DNA of 37,126 nucleotides, taken from contig JAJQBC010000081.1 of assembly GCA_021203465.1 (NCBI GenBank), positions 1-37,126 of the forward strand. The letters are read 5' to 3'. The stretch comes from Lachnospiraceae bacterium. Lineage in GTDB: Bacteria; Bacillota; Clostridia; Lachnospirales; Lachnospiraceae. Shown one piece after another: positions 2,698-37,126 of the stretch. Below the pieces are notes generated by a model, which searched no databases, had not been told where the DNA came from, and saw nothing but the letters and a program-made list of their open reading frames with translations. Each line of letters begins with the position of its first letter. Position 1 is the stretch's first letter. The translations under genes were made by a program, and so were the position numbers.

Positions 2698-3177
2698 ATG
2701 GAGAAAATCACGAGCTTTACGGTTGACCACATTCGTCTGATCCCGGGCGTCTATGTGTCGAGAAAGGATCCGGTCGGAGATACGGTTGTCACAACCTTCG
2801 ACCTGCGCATGACGAGCCCGAATGACGAGCCGGTCATGAACACTGCGGAGATACACGCCATTGAGCACCTCGGCGCGACCTTCCTGAGAAATCACGCACT
2901 CTATGGGACAAAGATTCTCTATTTCGGGCCGATGGGCTGCCGCACCGGCTTTTATCTGCTGTTGGCAGGTGATTTTGAGTCGGCAGATATCGTGAACCTG
3001 CTGATCGAGATGTACGAGTTTATCCGCGATTTTGAGGGAGATATCCCCGGAGCCGCTCCGCAGGACTGCGGAAATTATCTGGATATGAACCTTCCGATGG
3101 CGAAATGGCTCGCCCGGAGATATCTGGACGAAGTGCTCTACGATATCACGGATGAGCGCCTGCACTATCCGGGCTGA
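2698..3177 (+). CDS. luxS: S-ribosylhomocysteine lyase LuxS
   Basis: This 159-residue enzyme of the activated-methyl cycle cleaves S-ribosylhomocysteine to homocysteine and DPD, the precursor of autoinducer 2. The metal site is intact: HxxEH at His53, Glu56 and His57, plus Cys124 in QDCGNY. The catalytic cysteine is Cys81 in GPMGCRTGFYL. The length is normal. The start is fixed by an AAGGAGG ribosome site. The gene stands alone, with its own promoter and a hairpin terminator downstream. No pfs/mtnN gene is adjacent. Confidence 0.97.
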   Translation: MEKITSFTVDHIRLIPGVYVSRKDPVGDTVVTTFDLRMTSPNDEPVMNTAEIHAIEHLGATFLRNHALYGTKILYFGPMGCRTGFYLLLAGDFESADIVNLLIEMYEFIRDFEGDIPGAAPQDCGNYLDMNLPMAKWLARRYLDEVLYDITDERLHYPG

Positions 3178-30370: not shown

Positions 30371-32923
30371 CTAGCAGGTTGCGCCGCCTTTGACGTTCTT
30401 CTTCAGAATTGCTTCCTTGTCGATCTTATTGCTGAGCAGTTTATCACAGACATAATCGAAGCCCAACCTCGTCACAGTATCGGCAAAGCGCTCGCCACTC
30501 TGTCCCTCGTCGCGGAAAAGCAGGATCGCCTTCTCGACGACATCCATGACTTCCTCCTCGGAGGTGAAGATTCGCGGCAGCGACTCGCCGTGCGCGACCT
30601 TCTTGCCCCAGCGTCCGCCGATATAGATGCGATAGCCATCCTGATATTCAATCGCGCCAAACGGGCAGGAGTTCTTACAGCGCCCGCAGTTGTTGCAGAC
30701 CGATGGATCGATGTTAATCTTTCCGTCGACGACCTTCGCCACCTTGATCGGGCAGGTAGATTCCATCTTACACTTCTTGCAGCCATGGCACTTGCTGTAG
30801 TCCACAACCGGCACTCTCTGTCCGACTATGCCTAAATCGTTCAGATTCGGCTTCACGCAGTTGTTCGGGCAGCCGCCGACCGCAATCTTGAACTTGTGCG
30901 GCAGCGTCACGCCGTGATATCCCACATAGAATTTCTCATGCAGCCGCTCGGACAGACCAAAGGTGTCGATCAGGCCGTACTGGCAGGTCGTACCCTTGCA
31001 GGACACCACCGGGCGAACCAGCGAACCGGTGCCTCCGGTCGAGAGCCCATGCTCACCGAGGAAGTCGATCACAGCCTGAATATTTTCATGCTTCACGCCC
31101 TGAATCTCCAGCGTCAGACGGGTCGTCATCGTCATGGCTCCGGAACCATACTTCTCAGCAGCCTCCGCAATCACACGATGCTCTTCCGAGGTGATCCTGC
31201 CGTTACGGGTGATCACGCGGACATTGAAAACGTCCGGATAGCGCTTATCCTGCAGGCAGCCAAGCCCCTTCACACGCTTGATCTCCTCGGGCGGCAGCGT
31301 GCCGGTAAACTCCACCTTCACATTGCTGGTCCAGAGTCCGCCCTCCAGCACGCGCGTGTTCGTGTAACCCAATGCTTTCAGCCGGTTCTGCATGAAGTAG
31401 CTGCGCTTTCCTTTCGCACAGACAATCAGCAGCTTCTCGTCCGGCGCCACATCCGGAAGCGGAGCGTTCACCTTCGTCAGGTCATACCAGGGAGCTCCCG
31501 GCACCGTTGCCTTCGGATGAACGTCGATGACCTTGTAGCCCTTCGCCTTCCCTGCCGCGTATTCCGCGGGTGTGAAGGTCTCGAACTCTCCGTTTATCTT
31601 ATTTTCCAGAATATAGCAGGCCTGAACAAAGGGATGAATCGCTGTGGAAAATGGCGGCGCGTAGGCATAGTCAAGCGCGTCGAAATCCTCCAGCTTCATG
31701 CCAGCAGAAATGCCGGTGACCGCGATATCCACCATCTTGTCCACCGCGCCGGAGCCGAGCACCTGAATACCAAGCAGCGCATGCGTCGTCCTGTCCGCAA
31801 TCAGCTTGGTGACAAAGACGGAGGCGTCCGGATAATAGTGCACCTTGTCGTCGGTGACGCAGGTGACGCTGACGGCGTCATAACCCGCTGCCGCAGCCTG
31901 TTCCTCGGTAAGTCCCGTGCGTCCGGCGTTCAGATCATCCGCAAGCCGCACGACGCCGGTGCCAAGGCATCCGCCATAAGCGGCGTTCGCTCCTGTGAGG
32001 TTCTTCGCCAGCATCCGCCCGGTGATATTCGCGGTGGATCCCATCGCAGACCACTGCGGCTTTCCGGTCAGACGGTTGTAGACCTGCGCGCAGTCGCCGA
32101 CCGCGTAGACATCGTCCGCGTTCGTTCTCTGATACTTGTCGACAACGATCGTCCCCCTGTTCATCTCGATCCCGGAATCTGCGAGGAAGCCCGTCGCCGG
32201 TCTCACACCAATCGCGAGCACAACCAGCTCTCCCTCGAAGCTGCCGACGCTTGTGCGCACGCCGGTCGCCTTCTCAGAGCCAAGCACTTCCTCGAGGCCC
32301 GCGCCGGTGATGATCCGCATTCCCTTCTTCTGCAGCTCCCGGCGTATGTAAGCCGCAACCTCGGCATCGAAGAGATTCGGCATCACCTGGGAGGCCATGT
32401 CGACGACTGTGACCTTCAGGCCCTTCGCCATTAGATTCTCCGCAATCTCAAGACCGATGAAGCCGCCGCCCACGACCACAGCACTCCTGCAGCTGTTCTT
32501 CTCCGCGTAAGCGCGAAGACCGATCGCATCGTCCGGACAGCGCATCGTGAAGACGCCCGGCAGCTCTTTTCCCGCCACATTCGGCACAAAAGGCACGGCG
32601 CCGGTGGCGATGACCAGCTTGTCGTAAGATACGCTCTCCCCGTTCGCAAAGGCGACCGTCTTTGCCGCCGTGTCCACGGAGACCGCCTCCATCCCGGTGC
32701 GGACTTCCACGCCCGTCAGTCCGGTGAAGCTCTCCGGCGTGTTGACGATTAGCTCCTCCCTTGTCTCGATGCTGCCGCCCACATAATAGGGCAAACCACA
32801 GCCCGCGTAGGAAATGTCCTGACTCTTCGTAAAGACCGTAACCTTCGCGCTGCGATCCTGACGCATCAGCTTCGCCGCTGTCTTCGTTCCGGCGGCCACG
32901 CCGCCGATGACTACTACATTCAT
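30371..32923 (-). CDS. Three-module CoA-disulfide-reductase-like / rhodanese / sulfite reductase-like enzyme
   Basis: This 850-residue protein has three parts. Residues 1-445 are a flavin/NAD(P)H oxidoreductase of the CoA-disulfide reductase/NADH oxidase type: VVVIGGVAAG, the redox cysteine Cys42 in YAGCGLPYYVGG, VVVGGGFIGLEIAENL, and a dimerisation motif APPFSTAIHPF. Residues 446-539 are a rhodanese domain with catalytic Cys502 in VCAKGKRS. Residues 540-850 resemble an AsrC-like sulfite/nitrite reductase: siroheme-[4Fe-4S]-type cysteines at 642, 647, 685 and 689, and two ferredoxin clusters (712-724 and 743-753). The ATG at 32923 follows AAAGGAG. It likely moves electrons from NAD(P)H to a sulfur species. 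It is divergent from a LysR gene. Confidence 0.88.
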   Translation of the reverse strand: MNVVVIGGVAAGTKTAAKLMRQDRSAKVTVFTKSQDISYAGCGLPYYVGGSIETREELIVNTPESFTGLTGVEVRTGMEAVSVDTAAKTVAFANGESVSYDKLVIATGAVPFVPNVAGKELPGVFTMRCPDDAIGLRAYAEKNSCRSAVVVGGGFIGLEIAENLMAKGLKVTVVDMASQVMPNLFDAEVAAYIRRELQKKGMRIITGAGLEEVLGSEKATGVRTSVGSFEGELVVLAIGVRPATGFLADSGIEMNRGTIVVDKYQRTNADDVYAVGDCAQVYNRLTGKPQWSAMGSTANITGRMLAKNLTGANAAYGGCLGTGVVRLADDLNAGRTGLTEEQAAAAGYDAVSVTCVTDDKVHYYPDASVFVTKLIADRTTHALLGIQVLGSGAVDKMVDIAVTGISAGMKLEDFDALDYAYAPPFSTAIHPFVQACYILENKINGEFETFTPAEYAAGKAKGYKVIDVHPKATVPGAPWYDLTKVNAPLPDVAPDEKLLIVCAKGKRSYFMQNRLKALGYTNTRVLEGGLWTSNVKVEFTGTLPPEEIKRVKGLGCLQDKRYPDVFNVRVITRNGRITSEEHRVIAEAAEKYGSGAMTMTTRLTLEIQGVKHENIQAVIDFLGEHGLSTGGTGSLVRPVVSCKGTTCQYGLIDTFGLSERLHEKFYVGYHGVTLPHKFKIAVGGCPNNCVKPNLNDLGIVGQRVPVVDYSKCHGCKKCKMESTCPIKVAKVVDGKINIDPSVCNNCGRCKNSCPFGAIEYQDGYRIYIGGRWGKKVAHGESLPRIFTSEEEVMDVVEKAILLFRDEGQSGERFADTVTRLGFDYVCDKLLSNKIDKEAILKKNVKGGATC

Positions 32924-32994
32924 GCTACTCGCTCCTTTTCCCATGACAGATATAGCAGACCCATTTCCAGCCATTCTGCCATGTCTTTTTCTTG

Positions 32995-33048: not shown

Positions 33049-33174
33049 AAATTATTTTATCATAGTAACTCAGTCAACATGAATTGGAGAACAGAGGCTG
33101 GCTCAGGCCGAAGCAGATCGGAGACCTGTGACCAGCTGTTCCGAAATCGTTACGATTTTTTCAGGAGGTATCTC

Positions 33175-34050
33175 ATGCTGGATTATCGGATCGAAACCTT
33201 TTTGGTATTGTGCGAATGCAGAAATTATCGCCAGACCGCAGAGCTGCTGCACATCACGCAGCCCGCCGTTACGCAGCAGATTCATCACCTCGAGCAGGAA
33301 TACGGCTGCAAGCTGTTCCGCTATGCGAATCGGCGGCTTGAAAAGACCGAAGCTGCGGAAACGCTCGAGCTCTACGCGCGGGCGGAACGGCTCCATGAGC
33401 AGTCTCTCCGGGAACAGCTGAAGAAAAAAGACCCGATAAAAAAACTGCGGATCGGCGCGACAAAGACCATCGGAGATTATTTCCTCGCCAAATACATTCA
33501 CCGTTACCTGCACGACGAGAACCATTCCCTTGATTTCCTTGTGGACAATACGGAACGTCTTCTACGGGAACTCGAAGAAAACCAACTGGACTTCGCGGTC
33601 GTCGAAGGTTTTTTTGACAAGAACCGCTTTGACAGCATCCTGCTGCACAGAGAACCCTTCGTCGGAATCTGTCGCTGCGACCACCCCTTCGCCGGACGGG
33701 AGGTTTCCATCGACGAGCTGCTCAGCGAGACGATCATCCACCGGGAGGACGGCTCCGGCACGCGGGCGATCCTTGAGCAGGAGCTGATGGGCTATAACGA
33801 ATCGCTCAGCCGCTTCCATCGACGCATCTGTATTTCCAGCTTCAAGGTAATTCTCGACCTGGTACGTGAAGGCTTCGGCGTCTCCTTTGTCTACAATGTC
33901 CTTGCGGACAGCGACCCGGAGCTGGCCAAGTTTTCCCTGCAGGACGACCGCGTCATCCGAGAATTCAACATTGTCTATCTGAAATATGCCGACCAGAGAG
34001 AAAAGATCAGCCTGTTTTTTGGGGAAGAGCCGCTTCGAGACCATCCATGA
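33175..34050 (+). CDS. LysR-family transcriptional regulator
   Basis: This 291-residue regulator begins with the LysR winged helix (MLDYRIETFLVLCECRNYRQTA, then LHITQPAVTQQIHHLEQEYG, residues 1-60). A periplasmic-binding-like effector domain follows from about residue 88 (KKLRIGATKTIGDYF). The ATG at 33175 follows AGGAGG. The 44-residue upstream extension of the open frame is not supported. It is placed between the divergent sulfur/redox enzyme and the nitrogenase-like operon downstream, so it probably controls one or both. The effector is unknown. Confidence 0.93.
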   Translation: MLDYRIETFLVLCECRNYRQTAELLHITQPAVTQQIHHLEQEYGCKLFRYANRRLEKTEAAETLELYARAERLHEQSLREQLKKKDPIKKLRIGATKTIGDYFLAKYIHRYLHDENHSLDFLVDNTERLLRELEENQLDFAVVEGFFDKNRFDSILLHREPFVGICRCDHPFAGREVSIDELLSETIIHREDGSGTRAILEQELMGYNESLSRFHRRICISSFKVILDLVREGFGVSFVYNVLADSDPELAKFSLQDDRVIREFNIVYLKYADQREKISLFFGEEPLRDHP

Positions 34051-34130: not shown

Positions 34131-36344
34131 ATGAAAAAACCAATGGAACTGGCCGTATACGGCAAGGGCGGTATCGGCAAATCCACCGTCAGTGCAAACC
34201 TGTCCGCCGCGCTGGCTCTCTCGGGGAAGCGCGTTCTGCAGATCGGCTGCGACCCAAAGCATGATTCCACACGGCTTCTGTTGGGCGGAACCCTTATCCC
34301 GACTGTGCTTGATTACCTGAAGACCGTAGACAAGCGGCAGGCGCAGACGGAGGAGATTCTTCGCGAAGGCTTTATGGGTGTCGGTTGCATCGAGGCCGGC
34401 GGCCCGAAGCCCGGCGTAGGCTGCGCTGGACGCGGGATCATCTCCGCTTTTGAATTTCTGAACCAGCACCACACCAAGGACGCCTATGACATCGTTCTCT
34501 ACGACGTACTGGGAGACGTCGTCTGCGGCGGCTTCGCGGTCCCGGTTCGCCGGGAATACGCTGACGCCATTTTCCTTGTGACAAGCGGGAAATTCATGGC
34601 GCTGTACGCCGCCAACAATATTCTGCGCGGCATCCGCAATTACGACGGGGATACCTGGCAGCGCGTGGCCGGAATTATTTTCAATGAAAGAAAGGTGGCA
34701 GATGAGGCGGAACGCGTCAACCGCTTCGCACGCGCTGTCGGGCTTCCAATCTGCGCGCATGTACCGCGCAGCGATGCGTTCGCGCACGCCGAACGGCAAA
34801 ATCGCACGCTGATGCAGATGGATGGTTGCGAGGCGGAGCAGCGCGTGTTCCGCGAACTGGCACGGCAGATTGGCGGAGGGCTCAGGCTCTACAAAGCCTG
34901 CCCCCTAAGCGATGAGGAGCTGGAGCGCGTAGTATTCGGCGCGGAGGAACGGGCAGAACAGCCCACCGAAGTTTCCACTGCCAGAACTTTTTCTGAAAAA
35001 GTTGCCTCCCTACCGGAGCCAAAAGCAGAGACCGAAGAAATCCCTAAGAGAAGCGGAGCAGAGTGTCCTCCGCTCTACGGCTGCGCCTTCAACGGTGCGG
35101 CGACCGCCGCCATCAATCTGACGGACGCTCTGGTGATCGCACATTCACCGAGGGCCTGCGCGTTCTATACCTGGCAGAACATCAGCTCCCCGGGGCGGAA
35201 AAATCTGTTTAACCGCGGCATTCTCATGCCCTCCGCCATCAGTCCCCATTTCGAGTGCACGGAAATGGGACAGTCCGACGTGGTCTTCGGCGGCATGGAA
35301 CGTGTACGTGAGGCCGTGTTGCGGGCGATAGACCGGCATCCCGGCGCCGTCGTCGTCATCAGCTCCTGCGTCAGCGGGATCATCGGCGACGATATCCGAA
35401 GTCTGGAAGAACTGTCCACGCCCGAAATTCCGGTCATCACGGTCCCTGCTGACGGCGATATCGCCGGCGACTATATGGAGGGAATCCGCATCGCCATGCA
35501 CACGCTGGCTGAAAAGCTGATTGACCCTTCCGTCTGGCCTCGGCCTCAAAGCCGTCTGGTCAATCTGATCGGCGAGACGGGCGTCTCCAACAACCGCGAA
35601 ATAGACTTTCGCATTGTAAAAAGCTGGCTGGACGCAATGGGCATCTCCATTGGCTGCCGTTATCTGGGAGAGGCCTCCTGCGCGCAGATGCGAAATTTTC
35701 TGGCCGCACCGCTGAACATCCTTGCCAATGACAATGCAGAGGGACGCGAGCTAAAATCCTGGCTGAGCGAAACCTACAGCTGTACATTTCTCGATGAAGC
35801 GCTCCCGATTGGATTTGAGGCGACCGCTCGCTGGCTCAGGAAGCTCGGTGCATTTTTTGACTGTGCCGAGCAGGCAGAGAGTCTGATTACCGGACAGCGG
35901 GAGCTCTATCAAAGAGAAATCGAGCGCTGGAAACCCGTTTTTCAGGGAAAGAGGGTCTTCATGACGACAATCAATACCAACATGGACTGGCTGCTCGACA
36001 CCGCGGATGCCGTCGGCCTGCGCTTCGTCTCGATCGGAGTTCTGAACTATCTGCACCAGCCCGTGAAAATCACGGATCACCCAGAGAAATATCCCATCGA
36101 CGAAGATTTCGACTGGAGCCGGAGCCAGACGCTGATCCGGGAGCTGCACCCGGATATTGTGCTCTCCAACTACGTGACCAGAACGGATGCGGAGGACTGT
36201 CTGGTCGACTCCATGCCGATGAGTCCAATGGTCGGATTTCACTCCGGCATCGAGGTCATCGCGCGCTGGGGCAGGCTGATGCAGACAAAACGAAAGGGGG
36301 AATGGATGGATGACCGGTCCTTGTTCGAAAAGTATTACGCCTGA
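34131..36344 (+). CDS. Nitrogenase-like fusion: NifH/BchL-type reductase joined to NifD-type subunit
   Basis: This 737-residue protein joins two subunits that are normally separate. Residues 1 to about 265 are a complete NifH/BchL-type iron protein: P-loop GKGGIGKST (11-19), GCDPKHDST (39-47), and both cluster cysteines, Cys98 in GVGCAGRG and Cys132 in [10 protein letters not shown] Glu/Pro/Lys linker (about 270-310) follows. Residues from about 311 are a NifD/NifE/BchN-type subunit with three cluster cysteines at NifD-like spacing: Cys318 (YGCAFNGA), Cys343 (PRACAFY) and Cys413 ([11 protein letters not shown]). There is no nifENB or other nitrogen-fixation gene in the window. It would pass ATP-driven electrons to an unknown substrate with the next protein. 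The start follows GGGAGG at a rather long spacing. Confidence 0.92.
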
Positions 36345-37126
36345 CGGGCTCAGCGGCATGATCTTCGCGCTGGAGGGAATCAAAAACGCCATCGTGCTTC
36401 TGAACGGTCCGATGGGCTGCAAATTCTATCACAGCACAACTTCTCAGTTTCTCGCGCTGCGGCCGCCCCTGTACCTTCCCGCTTCCGAAGACGGGGAAAA
36501 AATACCGGTGGGCTACAATTTTCTCAACAACTGGTTTTTCCGCCAGTCCCGCGTACCCTGTACCTGGCTGGACGGCTATGACTATGTCTACGGAACTGCT
36601 GACAAGGTTCGCGACGGTCTCCTCTACCTCCGCGAGCACGTGAATTTCGAGCTGCTGGCCATCGTCAACTCCCCCGGCGCGTCGCTGATCGGCGACAATC
36701 TGGAGGAACTGGTCCGGGAAACCCTCCCGGACTGTCTGTGCGTCATGCTCGAGTCCCCCGGCTACTCCACTGATTTTTGCACCGGCTACGAGACGGCTCT
36801 CATGGAGCTCTTCCGGCAGGTCGGACCGCACATCTGGACAAAAACAACGCAGCCCACCGAAAATTCGCTCCAGAGAAGAGTAAACCTGCTCGGTCTCTCT
36901 ATCTGGCAGCGCTACTGGGAGGGCGATCTGGCAGAATTAAAGCGTCTGTTTGCCCTCTGCGGGATCGCCGTAAACTGCTGCCCCGCCGCACAGAATTCCA
37001 TGGAGGAATTGAGCCGTCTGCCGGAAGCCGATCTCAATGTCGTCGTCTATCCGGAAATGGCTTCGCGAGTGGCAGAATTATTACAGGAAACCTGCGGCAC
37101 GCCATACTATGTCTGTCCGGGACCTC
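36310..37126 (+). CDS. NifK/BchB-type nitrogenase-like subunit, partial at window edge
   Basis: At least 272 codons are present and the frame is open at the right end. The start ATG at 36310 lies 35 bases inside the end of the fusion gene, in another frame, so it is translationally coupled. The N-terminus reads [20 protein letters not shown], then [11 protein letters not shown], the position of the second NifK cluster cysteine (Cys37). The first NifK cysteine is not at the usual place; Cys5 lies a few residues upstream of it. At the third site the sequence is [11 protein letters not shown], without cysteine. This fits a divergent beta subunit that supplies only one or two ligands to a cluster shared with the NifD-type half. 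Confidence 0.85.

Follow-up and report, generated by a model that had tools for sequence, protein, structure and literature searches.

A nitrogenase-like reductase with its iron protein fused to the catalytic subunit, and a possible role in corrinoid salvage

The nitrogenase superfamily includes enzymes that reduce tetrapyrrole rings, namely DPOR, COR and CfbCD (reviewed in PMC7242693), as well as the group IV H-D-K enzymes of anaerobic metabolism that act as C-S reductases, methylthio-alkane reductase (Mar) and isethionate reductase (Isr). A further group, in which a nifH-like and a nifE-like sequence share one open reading frame (ORF), was described in Archaea, Firmicutes and Deltaproteobacteria (Dos Santos 2012, PMC3464626), named as 'fused nifH/nifE' in a table for Methanomassiliicoccales (Borrel 2014, PMC4153887), and found again in a 2024 survey, which records the NifH-NifD/E fusion for Methanomassiliicoccales and both fused and split forms for Methanosarcinales and Methanomicrobiales (PMC11237513, cluster 443). 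Here we analyze a fusion of this kind (HD), followed by a NifK/N-type gene (K), at the end of a 37,126-nucleotide contig of a Lachnospiraceae bacterium (JAJQBC010000081.1, assembly GCA_021203465.1), which as a whole is referred to below as the window. The gene order, a single H+E/D reading frame and then K/N, is that of the described group and the lineages overlap, so an initial reading of the sequence alone that had taken the arrangement to be unrecorded was mistaken on this point. The passages of PMC3464626 and PMC11237513 that describe the group give neither a function nor neighboring genes, and in the openly licensed literature, searched for the fusion, its function and a link to B12, we found no function, although one may be in print elsewhere. 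What is added here is the clade, the cysteine pattern, the riboswitches and, as the new element, the B12-gene context of the fused family. Our favored interpretation, which we consider reasonably likely, is that HD and K are the two genes of a nitrogenase-like reductase, probably of the composition (HD)2K2, that acts on a corrinoid or a related metallo-tetrapyrrole in B12 salvage.

The fusion of H and D in a single chain is genuine, and is neither an artefact nor an assembly error. Its reading frame (Table 1) contains no stop codon, and the junction between the two halves, where a stop or frameshift was to be looked for, translates continuously. Fer4_NifH (PF00142) at residues 6-268 (E 8.5e-94, 314 bits) and Oxidored_nitro (PF00148) at residues 318-714 (E 5.5e-62, 210 bits) were found by Pfam in this one chain, confirming the reductase and NifD-type subunit first proposed from the sequence. 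The H domain has a P-loop at residues 11-19, predicted [4Fe-4S] ligands C98 and C132, and the signature GCDPKHDST; the P-loop and both cysteines, already recognized as iron-protein hallmarks, are unchanged in 21 of 21 aligned fusions. In the D domain, the three cysteines noted earlier at spacings of 25 and 70 residues are C318, C343 and C413, which correspond to Cys62, Cys88 and Cys154 of NifD. The relative L043 also carries the fusion (86% identity to the window protein), and 44 genomes together contributed at least 54 fused ORFs at 52 loci; an error of one assembly is thereby excluded, and a frameshift or assembly artefact is ruled out. Across 54 of these ORFs the tether between the domains is 13-74 residues long (median 32).

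Table 1. Features of the HD-K region of the window and its upstream neighbors.
Feature	Positions	Strand	Remarks
HD fusion ORF	34131..36344	+	one 737-residue reading frame
Fe-protein (NifH-like) domain of the fusion	34131..34946	+	residues 1-272; limits by phmmer
H-to-D tether	34947..35054	+	36 residues; Glu/Pro/Ser-rich; sequence not conserved
NifD/E-type catalytic domain	35055..36344	+	residues 309-737
NifK/N-type gene	36310..37126	+	PF00148, 124.5 bits; first 272 residues, cut at contig end
LysR-type regulator	33127..34050	+	PF03466 and PF00126; 80 nt upstream of HD; start codon chosen by analyst
CoA-disulfide reductase/rhodanese/sulfite-reductase-like fusion	30371..32974	-	divergent neighbor; Pfam/NCBIfam

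To place the fusion among its relatives, 84,980 species genomes were scanned and the best 80 loci kept; these loci supplied the unfused controls and, with further fetched stretches, the fused set. Fused ORFs occur in Bacillota, Treponema, Myxococcota and methanogens, and the carriers among the matches listed are Lachnospiraceae, Sporobacter, Peptococcaceae, Eubacteriaceae, Clostridium tetanomorphum, Oscillospiraceae, Treponema, Myxococcota, Methanococcoides, Methanoregula and Methanomassiliicoccales-type archaea. By the labels of the tree described below, the family is represented in three bacterial and two archaeal phyla. Within the window's own family 115 of 397 genomes match the query at E 1e-40, most of them with the NifH part only; a search for the same fusion in other Lachnospiraceae, as had been suggested, yielded full-length relatives in five other genera (G154, G058, G203, G216, G229), and G320, the one other listed genome of the window's genus, has no match at this threshold. 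At the level of the class, nine of 391 genomes pass 1e-120, five with a full-length frame free of stops (the window's genome, G740, G775, G623, G426). The phylum of Methanococcoides has 11 matching genomes out of 246, eight with a full-length, stop-free frame, and in the archaeal order of L055 70 of 120 genomes match at 1e-130, most near full length. A K-type gene lies on the same strand beside HD in 54 of 54 cases and overlaps it in 50 (exceptions L046, L192, L193 and L194; K was taken from its longest possible start). Two variants were seen: an H-H-D triple fusion in a Myxococcota genome, with two complete tandem Fe-protein domains before D (L053:2627-5884), and L051, where H and D are in different, overlapping frames.

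The proteins were placed in a quick tree of 62 rows, built without bootstrap, in which several reference branches are long and from which BchXYZ and Isr references were left out. In this tree 28 fused D domains fall on one side of a branch (Shimodaira-Hasegawa-like approximate likelihood ratio test, SH-aLRT, 99), as do ten partner K proteins (SH-aLRT 99), and the nearest rows to the fused clade come from the unfused locus L080, for D (SH-aLRT 84) as for K (SH-aLRT 96). NifD/E, AnfD, MarD, BchN and CfbD lie outside it; the MarD row (L100_D2) matches chain 9fmg_A of the PDB with 917 bits, 9FMG being the structure of Mar, which uses nitrogenase metalloclusters (PMC12552129). The fused proteins thus appear as one clade separate from nitrogenase, NifEN, Mar, DPOR and Cfb, and the earlier expectation that they would lie outside the characterized families holds for those families placed in the tree. 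Inside the clade the window protein groups with L043, L035, L039 and L057, which are of Lachnospiraceae and Oscillospiraceae type.

The same separation is seen in the metal ligands and model scores. In an alignment with NifD, K, E and N from the Serratia plasmid L212 and BchN and B from Roseobacter L211, the positions of NifD Cys62, Cys88 and Cys154 are cysteine in 53 (with one gap), 54 and 54 of the 54 fused D domains. Among 55 K proteins, the residue aligned with Cys70 is Asp in 49, Glu in five and Asn in one; the Cys95 column holds Cys in all 55 (C37 in the window K), and the Cys153 column Pro in 54 and Leu in one. Three cysteines in D and one in K is the NifEN set (three in E, one in N; the three K positions read Gly, Cys, Gly in Serratia NifN), and differs from the P-cluster set of three in D and three in K. 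On this pattern we would expect one [4Fe-4S] cluster, with neither a P-cluster nor FeMoco. The FeMoco ligand columns agree, since Cys275 is present in one of 54 fused D domains and His442 in none, the window having Asn and Val. When the curated NCBIfam cut-offs were applied, none of the best 25 of 35 matches reached its own: the H domain scored 311.5 bits for nifH (cut-off 394.35), 307.6 for CfbC (402), 227.5 for BchL (345.15) and 190.1 for BchX (331.2), the D domain 128.2 for nifE (505.1), 88 for nifD (653.55), 47 for BchN (419.95) and 34.3 for CfbD (268.4), and the incomplete K 65.7 for BchB (490.35). A search of the window's genome, which is 98.5% complete, gave no NifB match at E 1e-10, so that a cofactor of the FeMoco or L-cluster type is not expected either. 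By ligands, scores and the lack of NifB, an N2-fixing nitrogenase of the Nif, Vnf or Anf type is ruled out as an identification and N2 fixation by the window enzyme is very unlikely, as the sequence-only reading had supposed.

NifEN shares the three cluster cysteines in the D/E chain and the one in K/N, at the NifK Cys95 position, and NifE is the best D-type NCBIfam model; on the other hand, the fused D domain stays under the nifE cut-off, lacks the NifE cysteine at 275, belongs to a separate clade and occurs here in a genome without NifB. DPOR (BchLNB/ChlLNB) is likewise an ATP-dependent enzyme with one [4Fe-4S] cluster in its catalytic part, and it reduces a tetrapyrrole, but its reductase is a separate protein, its fourth cluster ligand is Asp (PMC11423573) where the fused family has Cys, and the BchL model is under its cut-off. 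CfbCD, the tetrapyrrole reductase of F430 biosynthesis in methanogens, provides the second-best model for H; this too is under its cut-off, and CfbD works without K (PMC11423573), whereas K stands beside every fused ORF. Methanococcoides has a CfbCD-like pair (L213, identified by eye) in addition to the fusion. Mar and Isr both have a separate reductase; Mar forms its own clade, and the Isr cysteine set, with one cluster cysteine in IsrD and three in IsrK (PMC11423573), is the reverse of that in the fused family.

The substrate had been left open by the sequence-only reading. It can be narrowed, because the relatives of the window operon point to corrinoids. One line of evidence is the cobalamin riboswitch (Rfam RF00174, threshold 31.5 bits), which was found on the same strand, at the 5' end of the operon, at four fused loci. 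At L045 it occupies 2647-2880 (54.7 bits) and HD starts at 3046 with no transporter between; at L044 it occupies 405-622 (66.9 bits) and is followed by a TIM-barrel gene and then HD; at L049 (60.7 bits) it heads an operon of BtuF-, BtuC- and BtuD-like genes and HD; and at L060 (34.6 bits) it heads an operon continuing with a gene without a Pfam match, a double ABC ATPase, SLH and DUF4430 proteins, HD, K and an ECF S component. DUF4430 resembles cobalamin carriers. The unfused sister L080 has two tandem RF00174 elements (92 and 111 bits) heading an operon of the order TonB receptor-ExbB-ExbD-TonB-unknown-BtuF-like-BtuC-like-H-D-K. No RF00174 was detected in 14 further bacterial loci (L035-L039, L043, L046, L047, L057, L133, L134, L205, and the split or incomplete L051 and L056), in L053, in the seven archaeal loci scanned or in 14 unfused controls. 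In this evidence the position of the riboswitches weighs more than their number. B12 riboswitches also control B12-independent replacement enzymes, and HD-K could conceivably be such an isozyme, induced when cobalamin is scarce to replace a B12-dependent reductase whose substrate is not a corrinoid; L045, with its riboswitch directly before HD, fits this description. We nevertheless regard it as quite unlikely, since it leaves unexplained the co-operonic BtuFCD-like genes, ECF S component, DUF4430, CbiZ, CbiK, ChlI/ChlD and CobN, as well as the co-occurrence of the fusion with CobN described below.

The operon partners, with operons judged from strand, spacing and overlap only, provide the second line of evidence. 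Archaeal L178 has, on one strand, BtuF-, BtuC- and BtuD-like genes, CbiZ (PF01955, 184 bits), ChlI, ChlD, HD and K, while archaeal L198 has the order ChlD, TIM barrel, CbiK, CbiZ-like, BtuF-, BtuC- and BtuD-like, HD, K. CbiK (PF06180) is found in the archaeal operons L048, L198 and L199. L205 is the second HD-K copy of the Eubacteriaceae genome that also contains L046; here CobN, a CobN-type gene, ChlI/D, HD and K abut or overlap. In L055 the end of CobN lies 16 nt before HD. Four CobN proteins were tested and all score above the TIGR02257 cut-off, and two permeases exceed the Pfam FecCD cut-off. Neighbors were counted by tblastn at 60 bits in 53 fused loci (the 52 and, in addition, L190, in which a TAG interrupts the frame) and in 62 controls, these being the remaining unfused NifH-type loci of the same scan, including L080. 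CbiZ was found at 10/53 fused loci, CobN at 9/53, ChlI at 8/53, and CbiK and the TIM barrel at 3/53 each, compared with 0/62 controls in every case. The FecCD family of transporters carries haem and siderophores in addition to B12, the best match of the L058 ATPase is a haem model (under its cut-off), and the chelatase gives strong matches to the CobN and BchH models alike; the substrate might accordingly be another imported metallo-tetrapyrrole or metal chelate, such as haem, a chlorophyll product, F430 or a siderophore. The riboswitch together with CbiZ and CbiK favors corrinoids instead, and we hold this alternative to be decidedly improbable. The TIM-barrel family recurs beside the fused operon (L044:845-1882, L048:3420-4469, L198:17071-18072). 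Its L044 member matches PF01261; NCBIfam returned nothing for L044 and L048, and the PDB nothing for L044. The protein could be a CbiR-like cobamide-remodeling enzyme, an identification that is suggestive only.

A third line of evidence comes from whole genomes of the archaeal order of L055. CobN is present in 66 of its 120 genomes (over the cut-off in 58), and 63 genomes have both the fusion and CobN, seven the fusion only, three CobN only and 47 neither (Fisher p 4e-22). Two other genome-wide comparisons were uninformative: FecCD transporters were found in 15/17 fusion-bearing and 13/14 control genomes, and CbiZ in 106 of the 120 genomes of the order, so that for CbiZ only adjacency to the operon counts.

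Several observations weigh against a corrinoid substrate, or against reading these counts at face value. No RF00174 was found in the window, and in L035, L036, L037, L043, L051 and L057 none appeared even at a lax threshold, so the substrate may have changed in the window's relatives. By eye and by marker search, no B12 genes stand beside the operon in the window, L043, L035, L039 or L057. Of 24 fusion-bearing genomes tested, 10 have a CobN match (seven over the cut-off). The 14 in which none was found comprise the genomes of the window, L044, L045, L053 and L057 together with nine other Clostridia-class genomes; CobN is not an obligatory partner, because L044 and L045 have the riboswitch but no CobN in the genome. 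The riboswitch tally is 4/20 bacterial fused loci against 0/14 controls (Fisher p 0.13), or 1/15 controls if L080 is counted as one. ChlI and ChlD (L048) and the transporter parts tested are under their NCBIfam cut-offs, so these names rest on similarity, and BtuC-like genes are found beside controls too (22/53 fused, 10/62 controls). All ten CbiZ loci and eight of the nine CobN loci are archaeal, whereas the controls are mostly bacterial, and the neighbor rates are therefore confounded by taxonomy. The fused set is best-scoring rather than random, and G778, G779, G786 and G1062 are counted more than once, which weakens the counts. Finally, the Fisher test on the fusion and CobN ignores relatedness and genome completeness, and the 70 fusion genomes entered in it include partial matches (for example G1091, G1114 and G1145).

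In any case, the association of the family with B12 genes is observed in the relatives, and a corrinoid substrate is proposed because of their cobalamin riboswitches, B12-type operon partners and co-occurrence with CobN. We have good confidence in a corrinoid role at the level of the family. For the window's protein we lean only slightly toward the same role, since its own lineage has a LysR-type gene in place of B12 neighbors and the role must be carried over from relatives.

The reaction itself is proposed by analogy, because DPOR, COR and CfbCD reduce tetrapyrroles and because the Roseobacter L211 genes, in the order bchN-bchB-magnesium chelatase H-bchL, include among those for DPOR a chelatase H that is a CobN-type protein. 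By homology, a ferredoxin or flavodoxin would reduce a [4Fe-4S] cluster held between two H domains, and ATP binding and hydrolysis would then push low-potential electrons into the single D/K cluster, presumably a [4Fe-4S] held by the three D cysteines and the one K cysteine. From there electrons would pass to a substrate in the D/K cavity, the site of FeMoco in nitrogenase and of protochlorophyllide in DPOR. This substrate would be a corrinoid or a related metallo-tetrapyrrole, imported or recycled by the cell, and either saturation of a ring bond or reduction of the cobalt of a corrinoid is possible. CbiZ and CobN/ChlID, where present, might then remodel the product or exchange its metal, or adenosylation might follow. 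The tether had been expected to fix the stoichiometry, which seems right but incomplete: one H per D would give one Fe-protein dimer per D2K2, half of the canonical load of four H. Within a single heterotetramer the two H domains might pair and alternate between its halves; pairing across complexes is the other option, and the H-H-D form would lift the one-dimer constraint. A model in which a corrinoid reductase with a tethered Fe-protein has one H dimer serving the two catalytic halves of (HD)2K2 alternately, with the Myxococcota H-H-D form supplying a full dimer per half, is put forward tentatively, at a little below even confidence.

The genes around the window operon may be read in favor of another function. 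K starts 35 nt before the end of HD, and its remaining part, which was to be sought beyond the contig end, is on contig C139 of the same genome (C139:4-591, K residues 256-451 in L043 numbering, 81% identical to L043), the 55 nt at the window's end being the first 55 nt of C139. The three genes that follow K there are on the opposite strand and, by eye, apparently unrelated. Upstream of HD, the LysR-type gene is a candidate local regulator; L043 has a similar sequence at the same place, in two pieces. Beyond it, a divergent gene combines CoA-disulfide reductase, rhodanese and sulfite-reductase-like ferredoxin domains in a single chain and is conserved in L043, though its membership of the operon is doubtful. 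Since these two genes adjoin the operon in the window and L043, and the last 4 nt of K in L057 are shared with a PALP-family gene (PF00291) that looks CysK-like by eye, HD-K could be imagined as an Isr/Mar-like enzyme of organosulfur assimilation, cleaving a C-S bond under a CysB-like LysR and passing sulfide or sulfite to the sulfite-reductase-like fusion. This is unlikely in our view. The sulfite-reductase-like gene is beside only 2/53 fused loci; CysK-like genes, at 4/53 fused loci and 3/62 controls, make a weak link; and in L181, L183 and L186 a TATA-binding-protein-type gene (by eye) intervenes between the CysK-like gene and the operon. The separate clade of Mar, its use of nitrogenase metalloclusters set against the window genome's lack of NifB, and the reversed Isr cysteine set speak against it as well.

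Other arrangements were seen among the relatives. The sheep-omasum methanogen genome G778 (L055, L190-L195) has seven fused copies, several of them beside their own CobN or BtuC/BtuD-like genes; two contain an internal TAG, at residue 280 in the H-D tether of L190 and at residue 570 of L193, and the CobN gene near the L048 operon has one internal TAG. Methanomassiliicoccales are known for pyrrolysine (PMC4153887), and for L190 and L193 either read-through or a split gene is conceivable. In two genomes of the window's family (L041:6699-18810 and L042:8116-19749), two unfused H-D-K sets flank HypF and HypD, and L041 additionally has HypC and an AIR-synthase-type HypE candidate (PF22521, PF01455, PF01924 and PF02769 across both loci); such Hyp genes build the Fe(CN)2CO unit of [NiFe] hydrogenase. 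Twin NifHEN sets in bacteria of this kind were noted in 2012 (Dos Santos 2012, PMC3464626), and our literature search found nothing on twin H-D-K sets with HypF and HypD. The molybdenum/tungsten-cofactor riboswitch RF01055 occurs near unfused nitrogenase-like genes (L093:5612-5753, L093:7690-7838 and L096:3521-3652).

With its tether, the fusion is a testable object for the old question of whether every cycle of electron transfer requires dissociation of the Fe-protein. If the corrinoid role is correct, corrinoids would be a new substrate class for nitrogenase-like enzymes, and a function would be assigned to a family that spans three bacterial and two archaeal phyla here and reaches seven copies in one gut methanogen genome. 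B12 is predicted to be used but not made by 58% of human gut bacteria (PMC7733943), and under a role of this kind anaerobes would be investing ATP in low-potential chemistry to recycle it.

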